This document shows positions 60,498 to 63,373 of a DNA stretch of 64,000 nucleotides, in pieces. The notes under the pieces are model-generated. The model ran no database searches. It worked only from the letters and a program-made list of their open reading frames with translations, and was not told the origin of the DNA. The position numbers and the translations under genes were made by a program. Each line of letters opens with the position of its first letter. The first letter of the stretch is position 1. This stretch comes from Flavobacteriales bacterium (lineage in GTDB: Bacteria > Bacteroidota > Bacteroidia > CAIKAF01): the NCBI GenBank assembly GCA_022402535.1, contig JAKRSD010000012.1, positions 124,001 through 188,000 of the forward strand. The letters are read 5' to 3'.

Positions 60498-61364
60498 ATG
60501 TCTCAACAACCATTAATCATCGTTCCCATAGATTGGAGTGAACAATCTATGATTGCTTTAGAACAAGCCTGCAGTGTGGCTAAAACATTAAATCATACTC
60601 TGTTACTTTTACATGTAAAAGATGCCCCCGGCATTTTCAAAACCGCATCGGCAAAGGCTTTCCATGAAGAAGAAGAAAAAGAAATAACGGAACACTTGAA
60701 AAAAACAGCCGATGAATTGGTTCAAAAATGGGGAATAAACGTAAATTTTGAGGTTAAAACCGGGAAAATTTATGATAAAATCAGCGAAATTGCTGAAGAG
60801 AAAGAATCTTCTTTTATCATCATGGGCACTAACGGCAGTGTGGGAATCAAAAGATTTATAGGTTCCAATGCCCTTCGCGTGGTAAAGGAAAGTAAAGTGC
60901 CGGTTATCACTATTAAAGGGAAAGTGCATTCACGCGGATGTAAAACCATTGTACTTCCTTTGGATTTAACCAAAGAAACCCGGGAAAAAGTGGGCAAAGC
61001 ATTGGATTTTGCCAAATCATTCGGTTCTGAAATTTTTGTAGTGTCTGTATTAGAAACCAATGATGAGTTTACATTGAATCATCTTCAGCGTCAGTTGAGT
61101 CAGGTACATAGATATATTGAAGATCATGGGATTAAGGCCCAATCAGAGCTTATTGAGAAAAACGGAACGGTAGCCAATACCATTGTTGAGTATTCCAATA
61201 AGGTAAATGCGGATTTAATCATGATTATGACGCAGCAGGAGAATGATTTTACGGATCTGTTCATCGGTTCTCAGGCGCAGGCCATTATTAATCATAGTGA
61301 GATTCCGGTATTGAGTATTGTCCCAAGACCGACCGAATCACACATGTCTTCCATTTTCCAATAA
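60498..61364 (+). CDS. Tandem UspA-domain universal stress protein
   Basis: 288 residues, two UspA domains (about 5-138 and 148-280). The first has the ATP-binding signature MGTNGSVGIKRFIGSNALRVV (G-x2-G-x8-GS); the second ends MTQQENDFTDLFIGSQAQAII, where the signature is degenerate. VPVITI and IPVLSI close each domain. Adenylate-binding stress proteins; usually respond to energy or redox state. It begins an operon with the epimerase/CBS gene (six bases on) and the DAHP synthase gene. Confidence 0.92.
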   Translation: MSQQPLIIVPIDWSEQSMIALEQACSVAKTLNHTLLLLHVKDAPGIFKTASAKAFHEEEEKEITEHLKKTADELVQKWGINVNFEVKTGKIYDKISEIAEEKESSFIIMGTNGSVGIKRFIGSNALRVVKESKVPVITIKGKVHSRGCKTIVLPLDLTKETREKVGKALDFAKSFGSEIFVVSVLETNDEFTLNHLQRQLSQVHRYIEDHGIKAQSELIEKNGTVANTIVEYSNKVNADLIMIMTQQENDFTDLFIGSQAQAIINHSEIPVLSIVPRPTESHMSSIFQ

Positions 61365-61370
61365 GGGCAG

Positions 61371-62378
61371 ATGAAAATATCTGCTTCGGTATACTCCCAA
61401 AAAGAAAAAAATCTTCCTGAGCTTATTCCTATGTTGGATGCTTATCAGGTGGATTCTTTTCATATTGATTGCAATAACAATCCGGGAGTATTTGAAGATA
61501 TAAAACAGATACGCTCACTCAGCAAAACCCCTATAGATCTTCACATCATTTCAGATGATCCGCAGCCCTTTATAAACAAGGCGGCTGAAATGGAAATAGA
61601 ATATGTGCAGGTTCAGTTGGAAAATGCGGTTCAGCCGTTTCAATTTCCCAAAGAAAGTAAATGCCGGTTTGGAATTTCAATCATCTCTGAAACACCGGTA
61701 GAAGCTTTTACGCCCTTTGCCGACTCCGCCTTTTTTGTGCTGTTTATGACCACTACTCCCGGCCAAAGCGGAGGGGTTTTTAATAAAGAGAACTTTCGTC
61801 GCATACGGAAATTTGCAAGCCTGTTTCCGGGTAAAAGAATCCATGTGGATGGTGGTGTAAATGGCGAAGTATCTTTCATCTTGAGGCTATTGGGCGCCGA
61901 TTCTGTGGTATCAGGTTCATTTTTGGTGAATCATCAATTTCCGGGGGCTGCCATGTTAGATCTGCTCCATCGTGAAGTGAATTCATCCTATAAAATTGCA
62001 GACTTCATGCACGACGGCCCTGAAATGCCCGTAATGCCTGAAAAAAACTGTACTTTCTTAGACTCTGTAGCCGCCATTGAAAAATATAAAAACGGATTTG
62101 TTTTTTACACCGACGAGAACGGCAGATTAACAGGAATCAGCAGTAATGCCGATATACGCAAGGCAGTGCTGAAACATCCGCTCAAATTGAACGATGTGCC
62201 GCCTCATGATTTCATCAACAGAAATCCGCTCACAGTAAATCAAAACCTAAACATTACGGAGCTCCTGAGATTGATTAAAAAACAAACGTTCATTGTTAAT
62301 TTTTTACCTGTGGTGGACGATGAATTTCGTTTAACAGGTTACCTTACATTCAATTCACTAATCCGGGGAGAATCATGA
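61371..62378 (+). CDS. Ribulose-phosphate 3-epimerase-like domain fused to a CBS-domain pair
   Basis: 335 residues. Residues 1-205 are an RPE-type TIM barrel: the metal ligands H31/D33 (FHIDC), H58 (IDLHII) and D160 (HVDGGV) are all present, as is the phosphate loop TTTPGQSGG (127-135). The usual catalytic VMDGHF segment is replaced by NNNPGV. Residues 215-335 are two CBS repeats, GRLTGISSNADIRKAVL and LPVVDDEFRLTGYLTFNSLIRG, closest in pattern to the CBS pair of KdsD/KpsF. An unusual fusion; the exact substrate and the regulatory ligand are inferred. It overlaps the DAHP synthase gene by four bases. Confidence 0.85.
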   Translation: MKISASVYSQKEKNLPELIPMLDAYQVDSFHIDCNNNPGVFEDIKQIRSLSKTPIDLHIISDDPQPFINKAAEMEIEYVQVQLENAVQPFQFPKESKCRFGISIISETPVEAFTPFADSAFFVLFMTTTPGQSGGVFNKENFRRIRKFASLFPGKRIHVDGGVNGEVSFILRLLGADSVVSGSFLVNHQFPGAAMLDLLHREVNSSYKIADFMHDGPEMPVMPEKNCTFLDSVAAIEKYKNGFVFYTDENGRLTGISSNADIRKAVLKHPLKLNDVPPHDFINRNPLTVNQNLNITELLRLIKKQTFIVNFLPVVDDEFRLTGYLTFNSLIRGES

Positions 62379-63373
62379 TTATTCATTTAAAAAATTCCGT
62401 TTCCGAAGAAACTGCAAAAGAACTGGGCATTCTTCATAAATCTATTTTACTCAAAGAAAACAATACCCACATCCTGATAACCGCGGGCAGTGTGAAAAAC
62501 TTACCTCAAGGATTGGAAGACCTCACAGAGTCTTTTTATGTAACCGATTCAGATATTCAACTTGCCTCAAGAAATTACCGAAAAGAAACCCGTGAGGTTA
62601 AACTGGGTTCCGTTACCATTGGCGGAAATTCAGGAAACACGGTGATGATCAGCGGTCCATGTTCTGTTGAATCTGAAGAACAGATAACCCTGGCTGCCGA
62701 ATTGTGTGTGAAACTGGGTGTAAAAATTTTACGGGCCGGATGCTACAAACCGCGCACATCCCCCTATTCATTTCAGGGCTTAGGGCTCGAAGGACTGAAG
62801 TTACTGGCAAAAATGCGCGAAAAGTATGGACTGGCAGTAATCACCGAAGTGAAGGACGCTTCGCATATTGAAGAAATTATCGAATACAGTGACATCATTC
62901 AAATCGGTGCGAAGGCAATGTATGACCATGGTATTCTAAACCGTTGCGGTAAAACCCAAAAACCGGTACTAATCAAGCGAGGATTTGGCTCTACCCTTCA
63001 GGAGTTTGTGCAATCGGCAGAGTTTGTGCTTTCGGGCGGAAACCCTAACGTAATTTTATGCGAGAGAGGCATCCGTACCTTTGAAACCAAAACCCGCTTT
63101 ACATTGGATTTATGCGGAGTTGCCTACCTGAAAGAATATACCAATCTGCCCGTGGTTCTTGACCCAAGTCATGCCATGGGATATGCCTATGGGGTTCCGG
63201 ATCTTACCAGGGCCTGTATGGCAATGGGTGTGGATGGACTGCTTATCGAAACACACCCGACTCCCAAATCAGCCTTATCTGATGCATCGCAACAACTGGA
63301 TTTTAACGAATTTACAGAGTTGTACAATTCATTAAAACCACTGGCTACAGCCCTGAACAGAAATCTGGTATAA
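62375..63373 (+). CDS. aroF: 3-deoxy-7-phosphoheptulonate (DAHP) synthase, class I beta
   Basis: 332 residues. An N-terminal ferredoxin-like (ACT-like) domain of about 75 residues is followed by the TIM barrel with SGPCSVES (93-100), RAGCYKPRTSPYSFQG (120-135), IKRGFGST, LCERGIRTFE and VLDPSHAMG, the family blocks for phosphoenolpyruvate and metal binding (Cys and His). It condenses phosphoenolpyruvate with erythrose-4-phosphate, the first shikimate step. The ATG overlaps the stop of the epimerase/CBS gene (ATGA). Feedback regulation through the N-terminal domain is likely. Confidence 0.95.
   Translation: MIIHLKNSVSEETAKELGILHKSILLKENNTHILITAGSVKNLPQGLEDLTESFYVTDSDIQLASRNYRKETREVKLGSVTIGGNSGNTVMISGPCSVESEEQITLAAELCVKLGVKILRAGCYKPRTSPYSFQGLGLEGLKLLAKMREKYGLAVITEVKDASHIEEIIEYSDIIQIGAKAMYDHGILNRCGKTQKPVLIKRGFGSTLQEFVQSAEFVLSGGNPNVILCERGIRTFETKTRFTLDLCGVAYLKEYTNLPVVLDPSHAMGYAYGVPDLTRACMAMGVDGLLIETHPTPKSALSDASQQLDFNEFTELYNSLKPLATALNRNLV

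Follow-up and report, generated by a model that had tools for sequence, protein, structure and literature searches.

We begin by considering the described enzymes to which this locus lies closest. KDO is an outer-membrane sugar needed by most Gram-negative bacteria, and the first enzymes of its synthesis serve both as drug targets and as annotation markers. The first two steps belong to KdsD, the arabinose-5-phosphate (A5P) isomerase, and KdsA, the KDO 8-phosphate (KDO8P) synthase; KdsC, KdsB and KdtA act after them. With the help of a metal and two aspartates, ribulose-phosphate 3-epimerase (RPE) takes a proton from the carbon next to a carbonyl and delivers it back to the opposite face; its superfamily includes 1,2-isomerases of the TrpF/HisA type. 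Among the type I-beta DAHP synthases (DAHPS-Ib), some enzymes without a regulatory domain reportedly accept A5P.

The window, a stretch of 64,000 nucleotides from a Flavobacteriales genome (GenBank assembly GCA_022402535.1, contig JAKRSD010000012.1; genome G000, 3.41 Mb, 100% complete), contains a gene in which an RPE-type barrel is fused to a pair of CBS repeats (Table 1). From the comparison of genomes and sequences described below, we propose, with a probability of about two in three, that this fusion stands in for KdsD, and the DAHPS-like enzyme encoded by the overlapping gene for KdsA, in KDO biosynthesis.

Table 1. Features of the window and of related loci; positions without a locus prefix are those of the window.
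Feature	Position	Strand	Remarks
RPE-CBS fusion gene, 335 aa	61371..62378	+	proposed A5P-forming enzyme
RPE-type (beta/alpha)8 barrel of the fusion, ~residues 1-200	61371..61970	+	PF00834, Foldseek
Metal ligands of the barrel	H31 61461-61463; D33 61467-61469; H58 61542-61544; D160 61848-61850	+	invariant in 22/22 aligned relatives
CBS pair of the fusion, ~residues 206-334	61986..62372	+	second repeat (62208-62366) alone exceeds the Pfam cut-off
DAHPS-like synthase	62375..63373	+	4-base overlap with the fusion; proposed KDO8P synthase in place of KdsA
Universal stress protein (Usp), two Usp domains	60498..61364	+	ends 6 bases before the fusion
KdsC-type KDO8P phosphatase of the source genome	41507..42013	-	TIGR01670 124.7 bits, cut-off 106.95; 19 kb upstream of the fusion
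TAL/FSA-CBS genes	L101:3209-4231; L103:2951-3973; L104:5987-7042	-; -; +	also in 33 class genomes

The fusion is confirmed to be real and conserved, far beyond chance. Full-length homologues with 37-52% identity occur in many Bacteroidia; a contig scan with a single-sequence query returned only six relatives. The earlier note, made from the letters of the window, had described an RPE barrel that keeps its four metal ligands, has lost the segment after HxD and ends in two KdsD-like CBS repeats, and this description holds in every part. The HMM search that it proposed returns both domains: the Pfam model Ribul_P_3_epim (PF00834) covers residues 2-184 with 73.5 bits (cut-off 21.1), and the CBS model covers the second repeat only (residues 280-332, 40.9 bits, cut-off 24). 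The kpsF/KdsD models of NCBIfam align to residues 207-332, that is, to the entire CBS pair. In an AlphaFold2 model built with 22 relatives as input (pLDDT 91, pTM 0.87), the C-terminus adopts the CBS-pair fold; the best Foldseek matches in the PDB are the RPEs 1h1y, 3qc3 and 3ovq for the barrel and the KdsD CBS pairs 4o9k and 3k2v for the C-terminus. No SIS catalytic domain is matched in the fusion, where TIGR00393 and PRK10892 align to the CBS part only.

The earlier note had also allowed that the fusion might turn out to be the standard RPE of the phylum, a candidate that we reject. A canonical RPE (255 bits) sits 73 kb from the fusion in the same genome, so the fusion is not the RPE of this cell, and a separate canonical RPE is present in all 16 fusion-bearing genomes of a first survey (60 relatives and the source genome). 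The fusion reaches 63.9 bits against the RPE equivalog model TIGR01163, whose cut-off is 212.6. We compare the pockets of 22 fusion relatives with those of 15 Bacteroidia RPEs. The barrel keeps S6, M126, the phosphate-binding PGxSGG, DGG and G182. At five positions that are uniform in the RPEs (15/15 each) it differs: M41 becomes N35 (Asn or others among the relatives), M72 becomes I60, and H94, V143 and G148 become Q82, T128 and S133, all three invariant in the fusion family. In the segment after HxD, the six columns that hold PNxxFG of the FVPNxxFG loop in canonical RPEs are gaps in 22/22 relatives. Judged by these residues, the barrel is evidently under catalytic constraint, with a carbon-chain pocket that is systematically re-shaped. 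The invariant metal site together with the changed pocket suggests a metal-dependent sugar-phosphate enzyme that would hold its substrate in a different orientation. As the earlier note had proposed, the fusion is probably an enzyme of pentose phosphates.

We turn our attention to the neighbouring gene. Its product exceeds the NCBIfam cut-offs for DAHP synthase and scores 123.6 bits against the KdsA model TIGR01362, below the cut-off of 314. A tree of 47 sequences groups the 24 DAHPS of the fusion type in one clade (support 98/94), apart from ordinary DAHPS-Ib, including second copies from the same genomes. In and around the active site, the clade carries the invariant changes GARNMQN to GAKxMYD, TRNT to TRFT and SHG to SHA. 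It does, however, keep the motif KPRTS, which is typical of DAHPS and is not the KdsA motif, and this counts against reading the enzyme as a KDO8P synthase. A shikimate operon is unlikely for the gene pair because the source genome has a separate DAHPS-chorismate mutase (Pfam DAHP_synth_1 and CM_2) for that pathway, and because the pair is linked to KdsC. For the same reasons it is very improbable that the fusion is a true, regulated RPE that supplies the pentose phosphate and shikimate pathways by way of a neighbouring DAHP synthase. The clear RPE homology and the DAHPS scores of the neighbour would fit such an enzyme, but the altered pocket residues, the presence of a canonical RPE in every fusion genome checked and the linkage to KdsC rather than to aro genes speak against it, and the exclusion of KdsA and KdsD described below would be left unexplained.

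In 23 of the 28 related loci, the fusion and the DAHPS-like gene are directly followed by a third gene, for a KdsC-type phosphatase. These downstream phosphatases (e.g., L034:8010-8690) often have about 65-75 extra N-terminal residues, which resemble a degenerate helix-turn-helix and which the KdsC of the window lacks. The remaining pathway genes are retained as well: KdsB (217.8 bits) and KdtA (149.9 bits) lie on other contigs of the source genome, and of the 16 genomes with the fusion in the first survey, 15 have KdsB and 13 have KdtA, so that CMP-KDO should still be made. The Usp gene upstream adjoins the fusion only in the family of the source genome (G001, G002), and a functional link between the two is uncertain. 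The KdsC-type neighbours score nearly as well, or better, with a KDN-9-phosphatase model than with KdsC, and the pocket of the DAHPS-like enzyme fits neither DAHPS nor KdsA. Both observations would suit a gene pair whose product is some ulosonic acid other than KDO, such as a KDO stereoisomer derived from a different aldose phosphate, and is accepted by KdsB and KdtA. We consider this quite improbable, since the KdsB and KdtA of the fusion genomes score as ordinary KDO enzymes, and since close relatives switch between the KdsA route and the fusion route, which suggests that the product is the same.

We next consider the distribution of these genes. In the first survey, neither KdsD nor KdsA is found over cut-off in any of the 16 fusion genomes. 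In a class survey of 169 Bacteroidia genomes, 39 have the fusion, 123 have KdsA, none has both and seven have neither (Fisher test, 1.7e-31, calculated on genomes that are not independent samples). KdsD is present in 100 of the 169 and overlaps with the fusion only in G161, where the match is a SIS domain on its own. Forty genomes have the DAHPS-like gene, namely all 39 fusion genomes and G038; the two genes are on the same strand in 39/39, with 38 pairs within 330 bases and one pair 1,750 apart (between matched ends). Incompleteness of the metagenome-assembled genomes was considered as the cause of the pattern and rejected, as completeness exceeds 95% for most genomes and the exclusion has no exception. 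The fusion state and the KdsA state are each represented inside seven families (f1, f5, f16, f21, f24, f28, f45) and inside four genera (g21, g26, g29, g50); the exclusion is thus not the result of one shared ancestry. Different KDO entry modules are used by G030/G073 and G109/G140/G170 of g21, by G078/G145 and G035/G113/G175 of g26, and by G159 and G059/G129 of g50. The pattern within genera suggests a repeated exchange of the KDO entry operon. In a wider sample of the phylum the fusion is found in only 2 of 395 genomes, which places the family mainly in certain lineages of the Bacteroidia.

There are exceptions that count against the reading of the fusion as a replacement for KdsD. In G006 the fusion has been lost cleanly from its place between the Usp gene and the DAHPS-like gene (L106:7732-7777); this genome retains the order uridine phosphorylase-like gene, Usp, DAHPS-like gene, has KdsB and KdtA, and gives no match to KdsD or KdsA. 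In G038 the DAHPS-like gene and KdsC are present and the fusion is not; KdsA and a SIS domain are found at other places in this genome. In family f3 (G017, G063, G099, G131, G161; L052, L129-L132) the barrel of the fusion is kept and its CBS part has decayed, and 4/5 of its fusion members carry a divergent transaldolase-CBS protein as well. One may ask, then, whether the DAHPS-like enzyme alone makes octulosonate 8-phosphate, in which case the fusion would not supply A5P but would be an accessory or regulatory partner, as a sensor of CMP-KDO whose barrel binds metal. The two genomes with the DAHPS-like gene and no fusion, G006 and G038, favour this explanation, yet we regard it as unlikely: the fusion accompanies the DAHPS-like gene in 39 of 40 genomes, all of its catalytic metal ligands are invariant, in f3 it is the CBS sensor that decays and the barrel that stays, where a pure sensor should do the reverse, and without the fusion most of these genomes would have no A5P source left.

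A second combination of barrel and CBS pair bears on the replacement of KdsD by the fusion. Of the 169 class genomes, 27 have KdsA and lack KdsD, and all 27 carry a transaldolase/fructose-6-phosphate aldolase-type (TAL/FSA) barrel fused to a CBS pair; this protein is found in none of the 96 genomes of the same survey that have both KdsA and KdsD. It is about 340 aa long, the one protein scanned matches TAL_FSA with 122.6 bits, and its gene often adjoins KdsA and sometimes KdsB. FSA is known to yield A5P from glycolaldehyde and glyceraldehyde-3-phosphate (PMC9947464). TAL/FSA-CBS is therefore likely to be a second substitute for KdsD, and as an independent case it backs the view that a barrel followed by a KdsD-like CBS pair would be an A5P-forming, feedback-regulated enzyme.

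The CBS pair itself gives a hint of what might regulate the barrel. When a profile of the fusion-family CBS pairs is compared with 177,635 PDB sequences, the best match is the KdsD CBS pair 4o9k (57.1 bits; the next scores 51.0), and the KdsD CBS pairs 3k2v and 3fna are also matched. The same profile gives 45-57 bits for nine Bacteroidia KdsD CBS pairs and 34-42 for IMPDH, and all nine outscore IMPDH and the other CBS proteins. A nucleotide-sugar ligand, as the earlier note had suggested among others, is plausible. Because the profile is closest to 4o9k, which was reportedly solved with CMP-KDO, CMP-KDO is our leading guess for the feedback ligand.

The neighbouring DAHPS-like gene, the linkage to KdsC and the exclusion of KdsA and KdsD, none of which the earlier note had taken into account, together point to A5P supply for KDO rather than epimerisation as the role of the fusion. 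This role appears well supported by the genome comparison, from which, together with the sequences, we infer the reaction, the substrate, the use of A5P by the DAHPS-like enzyme and the ligand. The fusion would probably be a new enzyme of a variant KDO pathway. Its barrel would convert a pentose 5-phosphate into D-arabinose 5-phosphate by means of the metal site that it has kept and of two aspartates facing each other, D33 and D160. It would do so in one of two ways: by 1,2-isomerisation of ribulose-5-phosphate through a 1,2-enediolate, or by 2-epimerisation of ribose-5-phosphate, which would be the chemistry of RPE moved by one carbon. Since the chemistry of RPE takes place at C3, the proposal needs either a shifted site or a different proton transfer, which counts against it. 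The DAHPS-like enzyme would then condense A5P, instead of erythrose-4-phosphate, with PEP to KDO8P, and KdsC, KdsB and KdtA would finish the pathway. The end product CMP-KDO would most likely bind to the CBS pair and feed back on the barrel, as has been proposed for KdsD. For the full version of this scheme, in which both initial KDO steps are taken over completely by non-orthologous enzymes, a CMP-KDO-inhibited, A5P-forming barrel of the RPE superfamily and a DAHPS-derived KDO8P synthase, we lean only slightly in favour.

About a quarter of the sampled Bacteroidia appear to be without the standard first two KDO enzymes while the rest of the pathway is kept. If our proposal is true, the RPE superfamily gains a new catalytic activity, and a new clade of KDO8P synthases is currently named DAHP synthase. 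After SIS-CBS and TAL/FSA-CBS, the fusion would be the third case of an unrelated catalytic domain placed on the same CBS module for the same metabolic step. A literature search, with most subscription journals outside its coverage, returned no paper in which KDO synthesis involves an RPE-CBS or a transaldolase-CBS enzyme.

Set beside the known systems, the fusion shares with KdsD/KpsF/GutQ (SIS domain and CBS pair) the C-terminal CBS-pair layout, the proposed product and the place in the pathway, but has an RPE-type TIM barrel instead of the SIS domain, the catalytic parts being without homology. With RPE (PF00834, TIGR01163) and D-allulose-6-phosphate 3-epimerase it has in common the fold, the metal ligands and the phosphate-binding motifs; it differs from them in its low identity (about 25%), in scores far under the equivalog cut-offs, in the changed pocket and PNxxFG loop and in its C-terminal CBS pair, and a true RPE coexists with it. 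The DAHPS-like neighbour resembles the type I-beta DAHP synthases of Thermotoga maritima (1rzm) and Pyrococcus furiosus (1zco) in fold, KPRTS motif and metal cysteine, whereas it forms a separate clade with invariant pocket changes and is present in the 39 fusion genomes, with KdsA in 0/39, and in one other. Finally, TAL/FSA-CBS and the RPE-CBS fusion both join a TIM barrel to a KdsD-like CBS pair where the same A5P step is missing, but the former has an aldolase barrel, is partnered by an ordinary KdsA and occurs in other genomes.
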